Positions 32,662-44,985 of a stretch of DNA of 64,000 nucleotides are shown here, piece by piece; positions within the stretch are counted from its first letter, which is position 1, and every line of letters begins with the position of its first letter. Source of the DNA: Gammaproteobacteria bacterium (GTDB lineage: Bacteria; Pseudomonadota; Gammaproteobacteria; Chromatiales; Chromatiaceae); contig JAGRGQ010000012.1 in the NCBI GenBank assembly GCA_020445405.1, positions 1 to 64,000 of the forward strand. Direction: 5' to 3'. Made by a program: the position numbers and the translations under genes. The notes beneath the pieces were generated by a model. That model saw only the letters and a list, made by a program, of their open reading frames with translations. It did not search any database and was not told the DNA's origin.

Positions 32662-32787
32662 AATTTAAGACTCCGATTTTTTAGGGGCAATTGCAGATGG
32701 CGGAGGGCAGTAGGTTGTGGATCTCTCTCCCGTCACTTGTCAGCCTGAAATAATGCTTGAGTTCGGCAGCATGTAAGCTAGCCTTAC

Positions 32788-32822
32788 CTTGGCCCTTGGC
32801 CCTTGGCCCTTGGCCCTTGGCC
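32788..32822. repeat. Five tandem copies of CTTGGCC
   Basis: A perfect 7-bp tandem repeat (five copies, 35 bases) stands about 100 bases upstream of rplM, just after the end of the glcF promoter region. It resembles the heptanucleotide arrays found downstream in this window but is uniform and single-armed. Confidence 0.95.
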
Positions 32823-32924: not shown

Positions 32925-33353
32925 ATGACGACTGTAAGTGCAAAACCCGCTGAGGTTCGCCGCGACTGGTATCTCGTCGATGCCAATGAAAAAACGCTGG
33001 GCCGATTGGCCAGCGCGATCGCGCATCGATTGCGTGGTAAGCATAAACCCGAATATACACCGCATGTCGATACCGGTGATTACATCGTGGTTATCAATGC
33101 GGAGAAGGTCAGAGTGACCGGAAACAAGATGAAGGACAAGATGTATTACCACCATACCGGTTACATCGGAAACCTCAAATCGACTAACCTGACAAAGCTT
33201 TTGGCTGAACACCCGGAGCGGGCGTTGGAAAGCGCAGTCAAGGGGATGCTGCCGAGAAATCCACTGGGCAAGGCAATGTTCAGAAAGTTAAAGATTTACG
33301 CCGGTCCTGAGCACAGGCATCAGGCACAGCAGCCTCAGCCGCTCGAAATTTGA
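32925..33353 (+). CDS. rplM: 50S ribosomal protein L13
   Basis: The protein is 142 residues, the usual L13 length. Signature stretches are [16 protein letters not shown] (about 15-30), [15 protein letters not shown] (about 38-52), YYHHTGYIG (about 74-82) and GMLPRNPLG (about 104-112). ATG 32925 is correct since MTTVSAKP is a typical start; the frame upstream is not part of the gene. Followed by rpsI, as in nearly all bacteria, but with a heptad-repeat array between. Confidence 0.97.
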
Positions 33354-33356
33354 AAT

Positions 33357-33432
33357 TTAAGGTTCGAGGCACCAGGTACTGGAAACGAGTGAAAAATCCA
33401 ATCAACCTGGAACCTGGAACCCAAAACCTGGA
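33357..33432. repeat. Inverted heptanucleotide array between rplM and rpsI
   Basis: The left arm reads AGGTTCG, AGGCACC, AGGTACT, GGAAACG. The right arm is the complementary type, AACCTGG, AACCTGG, AACCCAA, AACCTGG. Both have a 7-base period and the arms face each other, so they can fold into an imperfect hairpin. The same kind of element lies after rpsI and between livK and livH. Confidence 0.75.
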
Positions 33433-33440
33433 TGGATAAA

Positions 33441-33833
33441 ATGGCACACACCCAAACCTATGCAACCGGACGTCGCAAAAGCTCCACCGCACGCGTCTAT
33501 CTGAGTGCCGGAAACGGCAGCATCACGGTAAATAATCGTACACTGGACCAGTACTTCGGCCGTGAAACCGCACGCATGGTGGTGCGTCAGCCGTTGACGG
33601 TGGCTGAAGTCCTGGACAAGGTGGATGTTCGTGTCTCGGTTATCGGCGGTGGTAATACCGGGCAGGCAGGCGCGATAAGGTTGGGCATTGCGCGAGCGCT
33701 TTCCATCTATGACGAAAGCCTGCACAGTCGCATGCGCAAGGCCGGTTACCTGACCCGCGACGCGCGCGCTGTGGAACGCAAGAAAGTGGGTCTGCACAAG
33801 GCGCGCAAGCGTCCGCAGTACTCCAAGCGATAG
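33441..33833 (+). CDS. rpsI: 30S ribosomal protein S9
   Basis: The protein is 130 residues, exactly the E. coli S9 length, and begins [19 protein letters not shown]. It has the conserved [19 protein letters not shown] stretch (about 67-85) and the basic tail [14 protein letters not shown] that reaches the tRNA in the P site. ATG 33441 is used; ATG 33432 upstream is in frame but would add a non-conserved MDK. It is co-transcribed with rplM. Confidence 0.97.
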
Positions 33834-33908
33834 GTGCCAGGTACCGAGGTCGGGATGCTGGGAACGAGGGAGCAAACTTTCCTGATACCCAGACCCCAGT
33901 ACCTCACA
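33834..33908. repeat. Inverted heptanucleotide array between rpsI and tRNA-Gln
   Basis: Left arm: AGGTGCC, AGGTACC, GAGGTCG, GGATGCT, GGGAACG, AGGGAGC. Right arm in the opposite sense: CTGATAC, CCAGACC, CCAGTAC, CTCACAA. The 7-base phase is kept across each arm, and GGTACC/CAGTACC can pair. Directly followed by the tRNA gene. Confidence 0.75.
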
Positions 33909-33910
33909 AT

Positions 33911-33986
33911 TGGGATGTAGCTCAACTGGCAGAGCGACGGACTCTGACTCCGTAGGTTCGAGGTTCGACCCCTCGCATCCCAGCCA
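33911..33986 (+). tRNA. tRNA-Gln (anticodon CTG)
   Basis: The 76-base sequence folds as a cloverleaf. The acceptor stem pairs TGGGATG with CATCCCA, the D arm is CTCAACTGGCAGAG, and the anticodon arm is ACGGA-CTCTGAC-TCCGT with anticodon CTG reading CAG. The T arm is CGAGG-TTCGACC-CCTCG, and CCA is encoded at the end. The T at position 1 opposite A72 region and the TGGG/CCCA ends agree with glutamine tRNAs. Confidence 0.97.
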
Positions 33987-35993: not shown

Positions 35994-37112
35994 ATGAAAA
36001 AGAGAGTACTTCAGAAACTTGCTGCCGGTGCGCTGTGTTTAGGTCTGGCTGCGCCGACATTCGCTGCGGACACGATCAAGCTGGGTGTTGCCGGTGCGCA
36101 CAGCGGCGATCTGGCCTCCTACGGATTGCCCAGCGTCAACGCCGCAAAACTGGTTGTTGAGCAGATCAACGCCAGTGGCGGCATCGATGGAAAAATGGTC
36201 GAATTGCTGATCGAGGACGATGTCTGCAAGCCGGAGGTGGCCACCAACACCGCAACCAAGCTGATATCTGACGGCGTGAACGTGGTGATGGGACACATCT
36301 GCTCCGGCGCCACCAAGGCTGCGTTGCCGATCTATAATAATGCGGGTGTGGTCGTCATGTCCCCGTCGGCGACCAATCCGGAGTTGACCCAGAGCGGCGA
36401 CTATCCGAACTTCTACCGCACGATCGCTTCTGACGATGCCCAGGCACGCACCGAAGTCGATTTTGCGCTGAATGTCCTGGGGCTGACCAAAATCGCGGTG
36501 ATTCACGACAAGGGCGATTACGGCAAGGGACTGGCCGAGTTTGCCAAGGCATTTCTGGAGAAGTCGGGCAAGGCCGAAGTCGTGCTGTTCGAAGGCGTTA
36601 CCCCCGGTGCGGTGGACTACTCGGCCGTGGTGCAGAAAATCAAACGTTCCGGGGCGGAGGCGGTCATTTTCGGGGGTTATCATCCTGAAGCTTCCAAAAT
36701 TATCACCCAGATGCGCAAAAAACGTCTCGATACAATCTTCATCTCGGATGACGGTGTGAAGGACGATACCTTTATCAAGGTGGCCGGCAAGTATGCCGAA
36801 GGGGTATACGCCACCGGTCCCAAGGACACGTCGTCAAATCCGCTCTCAAAAAAGGCGGTCGAAGCGCACAAAGCCAAATTCGGCACTGATCCCGGCGCCT
36901 TCTACGAGAATGCCTATTCCGCCACGCTGGCGCTACTGAATGCGGTTGACAAGGCGGGTTCCACCGAAATGGCGGCGGTGCGCGAAGCGCTGCAGAACAA
37001 CGATGTGGAAACACCGGTCGGCACCATCCACTTCGACAAGATGGGAGATGCCGTGGGCGTGGGCTTTGCCATGTATCAGGTAAAGGACGGCCAGTACGTC
37101 GAAGTCAAATAA
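35994..37112 (+). CDS. livK: Branched-chain amino-acid ABC transporter substrate-binding protein
   Basis: This 372-residue periplasmic binding protein has a signal peptide (MKKRVLQKLAAGALCLGLAAPTFA split near residue 24; only its ends are quoted as MKKRVLQ and APTFA). The mature part begins DTIKLGVAGAHSGDLASYG and has the conserved lobe features LLIEDDVCKPEVA and AVIFGGYHPEA of LivJ/LivK. It delivers leucine, isoleucine and valine, or related ligands, to LivHMGF. It heads the liv operon and is separated from livH by a heptanucleotide array. Confidence 0.93.
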   Translation: MKKRVLQKLAAGALCLGLAAPTFAADTIKLGVAGAHSGDLASYGLPSVNAAKLVVEQINASGGIDGKMVELLIEDDVCKPEVATNTATKLISDGVNVVMGHICSGATKAALPIYNNAGVVVMSPSATNPELTQSGDYPNFYRTIASDDAQARTEVDFALNVLGLTKIAVIHDKGDYGKGLAEFAKAFLEKSGKAEVVLFEGVTPGAVDYSAVVQKIKRSGAEAVIFGGYHPEASKIITQMRKKRLDTIFISDDGVKDDTFIKVAGKYAEGVYATGPKDTSSNPLSKKAVEAHKAKFGTDPGAFYENAYSATLALLNAVDKAGSTEMAAVREALQNNDVETPVGTIHFDKMGDAVGVGFAMYQVKDGQYVEVK

Positions 37113-37309
37113 TCAGGTACCAGGATCGAGGTACTAGGTACTAGGTGCTAGAGTCCACAGCCTCATACTGTCAGTGAATTGCTCCGGTGCCCGAAGCGCA
37201 AATAAGATTGGGTGTCGGGGCTGGTTACCGGCATCTTCGTTGACTCGTGGACTTAGACTATGAATTCTAATCCCAGAACCTCGATCCTCGGTCCTCGTTT
37301 CTTGTTCTA
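37113..37309. repeat. Inverted heptanucleotide array between livK and livH
   Basis: The left arm (about 37115-37156) reads CAGGTAC, CAGGATC, GAGGTAC, TAGGTAC, TAGGTGC, TAGAGTC. The right arm (about 37267-37308) reads TAATCCC, AGAACCT, CGATCCT, CGGTCCT, CGTTTCT, TGTTCTA, the complementary type. The arms are about 110 bases apart and separated by ordinary sequence. It lies inside the liv operon, so transcripts that cross it could fold here and lower expression of the membrane genes relative to livK. Confidence 0.8.
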
Positions 37310-38212
37310 ATGGAATATTTCATCGAACTGTTTTTCAGCGGTCTGACCCGGGGGGCGATTTATGCGCTGATCGCGCTGGGTTATACCATGGTGTATGGCA
37401 TCATTGGCCTGATCAATTTCGCCCACGGCGAGATCTATATGATCGGTGCGTTCACCTCCTTTGTTGTCGCCACGGTGCTCTCCATCTACGGTTTTCCACT
37501 GCTCTCCATCATTCTGCTGGCGGGTCTGGCGGCGGCGGTCTGGTCTGCCTCTTACGGTTATACCGTCGAAAAGATCGCATACCGGCCGTTACGTCATGCG
37601 CCACGCCTGTCCGCACTGATCAGCGCCATCGGCATGTCCATTTTTCTGCAGAACTATGTGCTGTTGGCCCAATCCCCGGATTTCCAGCCATTTCCCGAGC
37701 TGATCCCCGACTTCGAATTTATGGAACCATTTGCCCATGTGGTCGGATCTTCGGATGTGGTGATTCTGCTCACCACGGCGCTGGTCATGGTGGGCCTGAC
37801 CCTGCTGATCAAGTTTTCCCGGCTGGGCAAGGCGATGCGGGCCACGGCGCAGGACCGAACCATGGCGATGCTGGTGGGTATCGACGTAAACAAGATCATC
37901 TCGATGACCTTTATCATCGGCTCGTCGCTTGCCGCCATCGGGGGGATGTTGATCGCCTCTCACATCGGCCAGATCAATTTCTTCATCGGTTTTATCGCCG
38001 GCATCAAGGCATTTACGGCCGCTGTGCTGGGCGGTATCGGATCGATTCCCGGTGCAGTGCTGGGCGGTTTCGTTCTGGGGCTGACGGAGAGCTTCGCCAC
38101 CGGTTATGTCTCCAGCGACTATGAGGACGTATTCGCTTTCTCGTTGCTGGTGCTGATTCTGATCTTCAAACCCGCCGGACTGCTGGGTCGGGAAGCGGCG
38201 GAAAAGGTGTGA
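37310..38212 (+). CDS. livH: Branched-chain amino-acid ABC transporter permease LivH
   Basis: This 300-residue inner-membrane permease has about eight helices. The start MEYFIELFFSGLTRGAIYAL and the NFAHGEIYMIGAF stretch (about 37-49) are characteristic of LivH. The cytoplasmic coupling loop is around RLGKAMRATAQDRTMAMLVGID (quoted in part, RATAQDRTMA, about 181-190), and the GGIGSIPGAVLGG motif is near residue 240. It works with LivM. The gene follows livK after the repeat array and is 3 bases from livM. Confidence 0.93.
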   Translation: MEYFIELFFSGLTRGAIYALIALGYTMVYGIIGLINFAHGEIYMIGAFTSFVVATVLSIYGFPLLSIILLAGLAAAVWSASYGYTVEKIAYRPLRHAPRLSALISAIGMSIFLQNYVLLAQSPDFQPFPELIPDFEFMEPFAHVVGSSDVVILLTTALVMVGLTLLIKFSRLGKAMRATAQDRTMAMLVGIDVNKIISMTFIIGSSLAAIGGMLIASHIGQINFFIGFIAGIKAFTAAVLGGIGSIPGAVLGGFVLGLTESFATGYVSSDYEDVFAFSLLVLILIFKPAGLLGREAAEKV

Positions 38213-41911: not shown

Positions 41912-43453
41912 ATGCCTCAGTCTTACATTGAAAGAATCTTGCGTTCACGGGTCTACGATGTCGCCGAAGAGACACCGCTGAATATTGCCCCGAGGTTGTC
42001 GAAACGCCTGGGTAATCGGGTTTCTTTGAAAAGAGAGGACCTGCAACCGGTATTCTCGTTTAAATTGCGGGGAGCGTACAACAAGATTGCGGGTCTATCC
42101 GCCGAAGAAAGGGAGCGAGGGGTGATCGCCGCATCAGCCGGCAACCATGCCCAGGGGGTGGCGATATCAGCCAACAGGCTGGGTATTCGGGCACTGATCG
42201 TGATGCCGCAGACCACGCCGGTGATAAAAGTGGATGCGGTCAGGAGCTATGGCGCCAGGGCGGTACTTTTTGGCGATTCGTACGATGAAGCATATGAACA
42301 TTCCAGGCAGCTTGCCAGGCAGAAGGGAATGACTTTTATCCATCCCTTTGATGATGCGGATGTTATCGCGGGTCAGGGCACGATTGGAATGGAGATACTT
42401 CGCCAGCATGGCGGACCCCCAAACGCCATTTTTATACCCGTAGGTGGTGGGGGTCTCATTGCCGGGATAGGTGCCTACGTCAAGTTTGTGTTTCCCGGCG
42501 TAAAGATCATCGGTGTGGAACCTGAAGATGCGCCGACACTCCAGCGTGCCCTTGCATGCAAGCGAAGGGTGGTGTTGAAGCAGGTTGGAATCTTTGCGGA
42601 TGGTGTTGCCGTCAGGCAGATCGGAAAGGAGAGTTTCCGGATTGCCCGTGAGGTCGTGGATGAAGTGATACTGGTCAGCACCGATGAGATCTGTGCGGCG
42701 ATAAAGGATGTGTTTGACGACACCAGGACCGTAGCGGAGCCGGCGGGTGCACTCTCCGTTGCCGGGCTGAAACGATATGTCGCAAGAGAGGGCGCAAAAG
42801 ACCAAAGTCTGGTTGCGATCGAGAGTGGGGCAAATATAAATTTCGACCGATTACGTCACGTTGCCGAGCGTGCCGAATTGGGAGAGCGACGGGAGGCACT
42901 GCTGGCTGCCGAGATTCCAGAGGAGCCGGGCAGCTTTCTGAGATTTTGCCGGGCGCTGGGGCGCAGAAACATTACAGAGTTCAACTACCGTTATGCCGAT
43001 GCTGTCAATGCACATGTATTCGCGGGTGTCGAGTTGAGTGAGGGGGAGAGGGAACGCGAGGGGCTGGTGGATCATTTGCAACAGAAAGGGTATCGGGTGG
43101 TCGATCTGACCGACAACGAAACCGCAAAGCTGCATATACGCTATATGGTTGGCGGCCACTCGCCTTCGCTGCACGACGAGTCGCTCTATAGATTTCAGTT
43201 CCCCGAACGTCCTGGAGCGCTGTTGTCATTTCTGTCTGAACTGGGAAAGCGCTGGAACATCAGCCTGTTTCACTACCGTAACCACGGGGCAGCCTATGGC
43301 CGGGTGTTGATGGGGATACAGATCAGTACTAAGGAGAAGCACGAGTTCCGCAGGTTTCTCAGCGAACTGGGTTATGCAGTTGAAGAGGAGACCGACAATA
43401 TAGCCTACCGGCTATTTGCATGCGGCGGCAGTTGCAATTATCAAATGTCCTGA
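41912..43453 (+). CDS. ilvA: Threonine dehydratase, biosynthetic (IlvA)
   Basis: IlvA converts threonine to 2-oxobutanoate, the first step of isoleucine synthesis. The 513-residue protein equals the E. coli length. The PLP lysine is in PVFSFKLRGAY (about 48-58), the phosphate-binding loop is PVGGGGLIAGIGA (about 183-195), and two ACT-like regulatory domains follow (about 325-510) where isoleucine and valine bind. ATG 41912 follows AAGGAAG. The last residues FACGGSCNYQMS are an unusual cysteine-containing end where the family usually stops near YxLFLG. Confidence 0.95.
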   Translation: MPQSYIERILRSRVYDVAEETPLNIAPRLSKRLGNRVSLKREDLQPVFSFKLRGAYNKIAGLSAEERERGVIAASAGNHAQGVAISANRLGIRALIVMPQTTPVIKVDAVRSYGARAVLFGDSYDEAYEHSRQLARQKGMTFIHPFDDADVIAGQGTIGMEILRQHGGPPNAIFIPVGGGGLIAGIGAYVKFVFPGVKIIGVEPEDAPTLQRALACKRRVVLKQVGIFADGVAVRQIGKESFRIAREVVDEVILVSTDEICAAIKDVFDDTRTVAEPAGALSVAGLKRYVAREGAKDQSLVAIESGANINFDRLRHVAERAELGERREALLAAEIPEEPGSFLRFCRALGRRNITEFNYRYADAVNAHVFAGVELSEGEREREGLVDHLQQKGYRVVDLTDNETAKLHIRYMVGGHSPSLHDESLYRFQFPERPGALLSFLSELGKRWNISLFHYRNHGAAYGRVLMGIQISTKEKHEFRRFLSELGYAVEEETDNIAYRLFACGGSCNYQMS

Positions 43454-43456
43454 ATC

Positions 43457-43482
43457 ACCGGGTCCGGAGAGCCGGACCCGGT
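43457..43482 (+). terminator. Hairpin after ilvA
   Basis: A perfect 11-bp stem ACCGGGTCCGG / CCGGACCCGGT with an AGAG loop starts 4 bases after the ilvA stop. No T-run follows, so it may stabilise the 3' end rather than terminate by itself. It could also end the convergent histone-like transcript. Confidence 0.6.
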
Positions 43483-43542
43483 ATCCTGTCCCAAACCCAG
43501 ATAGCAACGGCGCCGTTAACCTGGCGGGTTCAGAGTCCAGGC

Positions 43543-43941
43543 TTAGGTGGTTGTCGTGGCTTTTTTTCTGGGCGTCACCTTTCTAGGTCTGAGGACCTTC
43601 TTCACGACTGCTTTTTTTGCGGTGACCTTTTTCTGAACGGTGGTCTTTTTCACGACTGCTTTTTTTGCGGCGACCTTTTTCTTTGCGGCGGTCTTTTTCA
43701 CGGTGGCCGTTCTTGCCGCTGGTGCTTTCTTCGCAACAACCTTTTTCTTTGCAACGGTCTTTTTCACGGTGGTCGTTCTTGCCGCTGGTGCTTTCTTCGC
43801 AGCAACTTTTTTCTTTGCGACGCTCTTTTTAACAGTGGCCTTGGTTGCCACGGGTCTCTTCTTCGCAACGACCTTCTTTGTCACGCTTGTCTTTTTCTTT
43901 ACGGTGCCGCTTTTCTTTGTTGCTGTTTTCTTAACGACCAT
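43543..43941 (-). CDS. Lysine/alanine-rich histone H1-like protein
   Basis: This 132-residue protein consists almost only of K, A, V, T and R. It is built from 22-residue units (KKAPAARTTTVKKTVAKKKV and variants), repeated roughly four to five times. It resembles AlgP and HctB-type histone-like tails, which bind DNA non-specifically through their charge. The ATG 43941 has AAGGGGG upstream; the GTG at 43944 is just before it. Its opposite strand reads as a phenylalanine-rich frame, an artefact. The DNA repeat unit is 66 bp. Confidence 0.82.
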   Translation of the reverse strand: MVVKKTATKKSGTVKKKTSVTKKVVAKKRPVATKATVKKSVAKKKVAAKKAPAARTTTVKKTVAKKKVVAKKAPAARTATVKKTAAKKKVAAKKAVVKKTTVQKKVTAKKAVVKKVLRPRKVTPRKKATTTT

Positions 43942-44029
43942 CACAACCCCCTTAGTAGAAGCTACGAACTAGTATCGTATGAATTACTACCGGTTGAGTA
44001 TAATAAAGCGAATGAAAAATACCAGCAAA

Positions 44030-44668
44030 TCATATAGTTTTTTTAACTCTGAGATGCAGTCCGGCTTCTGTGACAACGCCGTCGAGCGGAACGTCCCAGG
44101 AGCGCACGTTCATATTCGATAGCCTTTGACACTCGTGGGCCATACCGATCAGCTTCGGCCTGTACCAGTGTTCGCGGTGCTTCAGAAAAGCCAGGGTGCG
44201 ATCGTAATAACCGCCACCCATGCCCATCCTGTTTCCCAACTGGTCAAATCCAACCAGTGGCACAAGTATGAGATCCAGCGCCCATGGTGCGATGCATCGC
44301 CGTTTTACACCCATTGGTTCACCGATACCGAAACGATTTTTTTGCATGACATCGTCCGGTCGGTATTCGACAAACCAGAGCGCCTGCTTGCCGTCGTGTC
44401 TGAGGACGGGCAGGTACAGCTTTTTACCAAAGCGGAAGCCGATGCCAGCTAATGGAGCCGGGTCCAGTTCACCGTCGCAGGCCTGGTAGACGGCAATGGA
44501 CCGATAGCGCAGAAAAATACCCGATCGAATAAGATGATCAGTGGCGGCTTCGCTGTTGGCCAGGCGTCTGGCAACGGAAAGGGAGCGGCGCCTTGCCCGC
44601 AACTCTTTTCGCAGGTCTGATACCGGTAGCGGACCGGCGGATTTATCGGTCTGGGTTGGTGCGGTCAC
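44030..44668 (-). CDS. ygfA: 5-formyltetrahydrofolate cyclo-ligase
   Basis: This enzyme makes 5,10-methenyl-tetrahydrofolate from 5-formyl-THF using ATP. The 212-residue protein has LRKELRARRRSLS near the start, then the nucleotide-binding motif MGMGGGYYDRTLA (about 150-162). In E. coli YgfA (here the same gene) lies immediately downstream of 6S RNA, with which it is co-transcribed. That order is kept here. The start is GTG 44668. Confidence 0.93.
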   Translation of the reverse strand: MTAPTQTDKSAGPLPVSDLRKELRARRRSLSVARRLANSEAATDHLIRSGIFLRYRSIAVYQACDGELDPAPLAGIGFRFGKKLYLPVLRHDGKQALWFVEYRPDDVMQKNRFGIGEPMGVKRRCIAPWALDLILVPLVGFDQLGNRMGMGGGYYDRTLAFLKHREHWYRPKLIGMAHECQRLSNMNVRSWDVPLDGVVTEAGLHLRVKKTI

Positions 44669-44789: not shown

Positions 44790-44985
44790 GAAGAGGACAT
44801 TCCCCGCCGGTGCCGTCGCTAACGTTCGTTCTTGAACCAGTAGGCTCAAGTGGGGTCATCCGTGCCGCCTAAGGCTTTCCGCTCGGGGCGGACATGCACA
44901 CGGGCAGCGACTTACTGTCCCCGGGGTATATATTAGGCTCAAGAAAATACCCGGTTGGCTTACGTACACTACAGGGAACGTCCCT
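44790..44985 (-). ncRNA. ssrS: 6S RNA (SsrS)
   Basis: 6S RNA imitates an open promoter and holds sigma-70 RNA polymerase in stationary phase. The call rests on synteny and fold. It lies between zapA and ygfA, the fixed place of ssrS in gammaproteobacteria. The ends pair (GGACGTTCCC with GGGAATGTCC). An internal hairpin CTTGAGCC-tact-GGTTCAAG (44831-44850) is the counterpart of the CCTTGAACC / GGTTCAAGG arm of E. coli 6S. The deduced length of about 195 nt is near the usual 184. The ends are estimates. Confidence 0.82.

Follow-up and report, generated by a model that had tools for sequence, protein, structure and literature searches.

The spacer between the ribosomal protein genes rplM and rpsI was found to consist almost wholly of two facing arrays of degenerate seven-base units, and elements of the same type were observed elsewhere in this genome. 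The arrays, their facing orientation, the position of their AGG side right after stop codons and the ability of their arms to pair are matters of observation, as is their turnover between congeners. As to their nature, we give roughly even chances to the reading that the elements are intercistronic RNA stem-loops whose arms have grown by 7-nt duplication, and which probably resemble REP hairpins rather than terminators.

The window, i.e., the whole stretch of 64,000 nucleotides that was analysed, corresponds to bases 1-64000 of contig C33, which is 73 kb long and belongs to an assembly of 4.18 Mb and 322 contigs. The best matches of its S9 protein were Sedimenticola-related MAGs (Chromatiales). 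Contamination of the contig was considered and rejected, its tetranucleotide profile agreeing with those of other contigs (correlation 0.94-0.99). The relevant features are listed below, with the supporting methods in parentheses.

32925-33353, plus strand: rplM, ribosomal protein L13 (Pfam PF00572, E 6e-49)
33345-33358, plus strand: two tandem copies of GAAATTT that run across the rplM stop codon, lag-7 continuous with the left arm (sequence, lag-7 scan)
33360-33387, plus strand: left arm of the rplM-rpsI element, AGGTTCG AGGCACC AGGTACT GGAAACG (sequence, lag-7 scan, profile scan)
33404-33432, minus strand: right arm of the rplM-rpsI element, facing the left arm, just upstream of rpsI (TRF period 7, profile scan)
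33441-33833, plus strand: rpsI, ribosomal protein S9 (Pfam PF00380, E 2e-47)
33832-33866, plus strand: left arm of the rpsI-tRNA-Gln element; overlaps with the TAG stop of rpsI (profile scan)
33885-33904, minus strand: right arm of the rpsI-tRNA-Gln element (profile scan)
33911-33986, plus strand: tRNA-Gln (CTG) (ARAGORN, Rfam)
35994-37112, plus strand: livK-like periplasmic binding protein (Pfam PF13458, E 2e-63)
37115-37157, plus strand: left arm of the livK-livH element, AGGTACC AGGATCG AGGTACT AGGTACT AGGTGCT AGAGTCC (TRF, lag-7 scan, profile scan)
37272-37301, minus strand: right arm of the livK-livH element; its end lies immediately ahead of the start codon of livH (TRF, lag-7 scan)
37310-38212, plus strand: livH-like branched-chain amino acid permease (Pfam PF02653, E 1e-48)

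The earlier note on this DNA had described facing arrays with a 7-base period and varying bases at 33357-33432. These proved real: when the spacer was shuffled 2000 times by dinucleotide, no shuffle reached the lag-7 identity of both arms. The start of the left arm was refined to 33360, 7 nt past the rplM stop codon (33351-33353), while the lag-7 signal itself begins upstream of 33357, in the GAAATTT duplication. On the plus strand, the right arm reads AACCTGG AACCTGG AACCCAA AACCTGG, and Tandem Repeats Finder reported period 7 with 4.1 copies and 72% matches. The period is strict in both arms, yet one unit in each fits the consensus poorly.

The expected hairpin was also recovered. The predicted RNA fold of 33354-33440 reached -25.9 kcal/mol (z -3.1), and none of 200 shuffles was as good; with 141 nt of context the same stem was retained, and z dropped to -1.8. 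Since the modelled stem does not extend as far as the GGATGG stretch ahead of rpsI, the ribosome site of this gene is probably not buried; an alternative in-frame ATG is possible at 33432. The claim that the element separates two normally adjacent genes was correct insofar as the spacer is unusually enlarged (87 nt), but the genes remain neighbours in the same order and on the same strand. A perfect CCTTGGC array of 5.1 copies was also noted at 32787-32822, about 100 nt upstream of rplM; it represents a second heptad vocabulary less than 600 nt from the element.

Similar elements had been reported at 33.8 and 37.1 kb, and both are present. The livK-livH element (37115-37301) is the clearest (0 of 2000 shuffles; z -3.5 for the fold of 37108-37309), while the rpsI-tRNA-Gln element (33832-33904) is weaker, with 40 of 2000 shuffles reaching its lag-7 identity and a fold z of -2.0. 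A unit profile, A-G-G-T-N-C-N, was built from five seed elements and scanned over 0.97 Mb (23% of this genome). At high score, five facing elements were detected, compared to none in the reversed sequence at the same threshold and no outward pairs; the profile was trained on the same five elements, and hence these two controls carry the weight. The earlier note had proposed a family of elements, to be given up if arrays were no commoner than chance, and the excess over the control (5 vs 0) upholds it.

Two of the five elements lie outside the window, at gap-pgk (C267:76618-76696) and thiS-thiG (C66:36160-36236), these genes being named by eye from translation, with gap and pgk backed by matching orthologous loci. 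All five lie between co-directional genes and start 0-7 nt past a stop codon, the distances resting on mechanical ORF calls. When arrays were counted without a profile in the intergenic DNA of this genome, period 7 was the highest: it had 9 arrays, and the other periods from 4 to 14 averaged 2.6. The corresponding values were 7 and 1.5 in the relative G008, and 12 and 6.9 in 80 named loci, where the excess was smaller and period 7 was not the single maximum. The exact pattern AGGTACCNAGGTACC gave no match. Looser patterns, run over the whole of this genome with 2 mismatches, gave mostly chance-level counts (38+59 for the loosest, control 32+38), and the inspected matches outside C33, C66 and C267 included no facing pair.

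At gathering score, an Rfam search of the window assigned the heptad elements to no family and returned only tRNA and 6S RNA, the latter at 44797-44980 on the minus strand (RF00013, 86.7 bits). Independently of the heptads, an ORF at 43420-44037 contains 48- and 66-bp tandem repeats (43597-43875). Terminator calls on the plus strand were absent from 33360-33432, from 33832-33904 and from the end of the livK-livH right arm. No U-tract follows the elements of the window, and rho-independent termination was therefore rejected.

The arrangement of the arrays was examined on a larger scale in the repeat-rich relative G041, using a sample of 0.25 Mb picked for richness and containing 48 strong arrays. 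Neighbouring arrays were facing in 14 cases, oriented the same way in 3 and outward in none. Of 40 arrays, 26 had their outer AGG side no more than 25 nt from a gene end (a stop in 17 cases, a start in 9); for the inner side this was so in 1 of 34, and for a random intergenic stretch in 21%. Arms often begin with TAAAGGC on the outer side and carry AGGAAAAGATA at the inward end, with differing cores between them. Perfect AGGTACT arrays are cut off by the ends of several G041 contigs (L295, L296, L297, L301, L307 and L310); this assembly was thus probably broken by long arrays, and array numbers from short-read assemblies are underestimates.

A marked turnover was observed among relatives. In 80 other genomes, the probable closest relative included, the rplM-rpsI spacer measured 3-81 nt and contained no heptads. 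The spacer is likewise free of heptads in congener G002, with 35 nt, and in L038, with 34 nt, which, given its identical livK-livH spacer, is probably congener G001. Judged from these spacers, the rplM-rpsI element is a recent acquisition, lacking in both congeneric genomes seen. After rpsI, L038 has only a short stretch of three right-arm-like units, and AGGTACT x10 or AGGGCCG-type units occur there in relatives that are more distant. At livK-livH, G001 and G066 carry heptad hairpins that differ in both sequence and core. Of 146 family genomes, 5 had strict AGGTACY arrays; G041 gave 133 matches and G066 gave 42, overlapping registers being tallied separately. Thus, both the presence of arrays and their unit words shift quickly between congeners.

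The empty rplM-rpsI site in congeners, the very uneven copy number across genomes, and the outer TAAAGGC and inner AGGAAAAGATA shared by G041 arms around unrelated cores would suit a miniature mobile element, in which a non-autonomous transposon or REPIN-like element inserting after stops would have the facing arrays as its terminal inverted repeats. We regard this as quite unlikely. No target-site duplication was seen at rplM-rpsI, the cores are not shared, and one-armed and same-direction arrays also occur. The REP-type transposase domain PF01797 is absent from the array-bearing genomes G008 and G087 and plentiful in the array-poor G012. Mobility driven by RAYT (Y1) transposase was likewise found unsupported, as the transposase was uncorrelated with arrays across genomes and no arrays adjoined the PF01797 loci examined.

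Pairing energies were compared between true partner arms, swapped arms and shuffled sequences. The values were -42.8, -42.6 and -20.9 kcal/mol in G041, and -28.0, -27.3 and -17.7 kcal/mol in the genome of the window, respectively. Compensatory covariation between partner arms was sought and not found. Since pairing is equally strong after swapping, the arms have not co-evolved as partners, and the hairpin stems arise from shared vocabulary and facing orientation. Blocks of two or three units are repeated within single arms, which, together with the doubled GAAATTT at the rplM stop, points to growth of the arms by 7-nt steps.

These observations are also what neutral slippage would produce, i.e., a polymerase slipping by seven nucleotides, with arrays of no function piling up at gene ends, where they do least harm, and the facing arrangement arising by template switching in short palindromes. 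We consider this explanation possible, though somewhat doubtful. It would account for the fast change between congeners, the duplicated multi-unit blocks, and true partners matching no better than swapped arms; in addition, an earlier survey, as cited in PMC4679880, found seven to be the preferred unit of long bacterial repeats. The strict gene-end polarity and the complete lack of outward pairs are hard to explain in this way. Mismatches between adjacent units are also unevenly distributed over the seven positions, about 17% at A1-G2-G3 against about 30% at the others, although this bias is partly built in, the phase having been set by AGG.

The GG of the unit is among its best-kept positions. 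Four spaced GG tracts per arm could fold into a quadruplex of two layers, at the DNA or RNA level; quadruplexes have been proposed for GGGNATC heptads as well, and the gene-end polarity of those heptads (PMC4692102) equals that observed here. Two Gs per unit with 5-nt loops would be weak at best, however, and a quadruplex needs neither C6, which is kept in 97% of profile-detected units, nor facing pairs, so that we consider it very improbable.

The intercistronic stem-loop reading gains from the comparison of orthologous spacers. At gap-pgk and livK-livH, most heptad-free relatives show an ordinary stem-loop at the corresponding place; in the livK-livH spacer it has a T-run in G017 and G012 and none in G005. 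The exceptions at gap-pgk are G002, without a significant hairpin (z -0.15), and G004, with a weak overall score (z -1.5). These two spacers suggest that what is kept is the stem-loop, and that heptads are one of the ways to build it; such retention in relatives also speaks against slippage without function.

Under the stem-loop reading, arms of about AGGTNCN, followed by the complement, would lengthen and shorten by tandem duplication in seven-base steps. Nearly every unit could pair with nearly any unit of the opposite arm, so the hairpin would outlast unit gain, loss and register slips. In a polycistronic mRNA it would mark the end of the upstream cistron, blocking 3'-to-5' exonucleases or guiding processing, and would thereby permit unequal expression of neighbouring genes, as does the REP hairpin between malE and malF. 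Intercistronic hairpins of E. coli that lack a U-tract, e.g., malE-malF, shield the upstream cistron from 3'-to-5' exonucleases (PMC5927463). By this analogy, protection of the upstream cistron would be the most likely role, which we hold with about equal measures of confidence and doubt. Several points weigh against a hairpin role: unequal expression of L13 and S9 offers no obvious advantage, AGG is retained beyond what pairing alone needs, and partner arms lack covariation. Moreover, relatives have no hairpin at rplM-rpsI; with no ancestral hairpin there to replace, the element at this site may simply be tolerated and bring no benefit.

The closest known counterparts are the heterogeneous GGGANTN heptads of Xanthomonas and the GGGGA(C/T)T heptads of Nostoc, which are intergenic, form convergent pairs (70-75 pairing cases per genome in Xanthomonas) and are of unknown function (Rehm et al. 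2015, PMC4692102). In GGGNATC-type repeats, the coding strand carries the G-rich side past stops and the non-coding strand carries it ahead of starts, and the repeats vary between related species (PMC4692102). The AGGTNCN arrays are likewise degenerate tandem heptads, mainly intergenic, with the same G-rich polarity (all five elements of this genome, and the outer sides in G041) and convergent pairs in both genomes. Facing GGGATTC arrays in the same arrangement were found at a Lysobacter locus (L093). The differences are the missing GGG tract of a three-layer quadruplex (two Gs, not three), the other lineage, and far fewer copies in the genome of the window; furthermore, at two orthologous spacers AGGTNCN hairpins take the place of ordinary stem-loops, and the AGGTNCN arms proved interchangeable. 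With every architectural feature matched except the GGG tract, the AGGTNCN family is a variant of the Xanthomonas/Nostoc kind with a different word, not a new kind. A literature search for AGGTNCN-type words in Sedimenticola-like bacteria returned nothing relevant.

Other systems are more distant. REP/BIME/REPIN elements share the short palindromes after stops, intercistronic and foldable in mRNA, and REP hairpins stabilise upstream cistrons (PMC5927463); unlike them, the heptad arrays have no conserved palindromic unit, consist of tandem-heptad arms that vary in length, unit number and word, and lack a linked RAYT transposase. The TAACTGA repeats of marine Beggiatoaceae (MacGregor 2015, PMC4679880) are also intergenic 7-nt tandem repeats of sulfur-oxidising gammaproteobacteria, but their word is fixed, and they are nearly always direct, single-armed and mostly upstream of start codons; the units of the present elements are AGGTNCN-like and do not identify them as TAACTGA repeats. 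Geobacter metallireducens has about 49 dispersed elements of four heptads (consensus GGGACCG / GGACCGG; PMC2700814); they differ in occurring also inside genes, in their fixed unit number and in being presented as predicted regulatory RNA elements, and facing pairs are not among the features given in the part drawn on here.

For the heptad arrays of Xanthomonas and Nostoc, the function was described as still to be elucidated (PMC4692102). The AGGTNCN family offers three handles: spacers with and without the element, alternating stem-loop types at gap-pgk and livK-livH, and interchangeable arms. Together they make it possible to test directly if selection acts on the hairpin, with the heptad being no more than its building mode. 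A broader proposal, that facing heptad arrays form a general class of self-renewing intercistronic hairpins in gammaproteobacteria, with constant step and polarity, a lineage-specific word, and arms acting as interchangeable zippers, appears unlikely at present; if true, it would imply a cellular process extending DNA at gene ends by seven bases, together with selection keeping pairs facing.

Further heptad words were noted in passing. G008 contains arrays of several distinct words, and at C3:633099-633256 (L124) a facing AAGGTAC pair encloses the heptad run ATCAGTT ATCAGTT GTCAGC, the complement of which contains TAACTGA, the Beggiatoaceae word. The gap-pgk spacer of G004 (L270) carries GAAGCTT GAAGCGT GAAGTGT GAGGTTT GAGGCTT beside its ordinary hairpin. 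In Zobellella taiwanensis (L080:1227-1447), four GGGGACT units are followed by about 20 CCCTAAT units.
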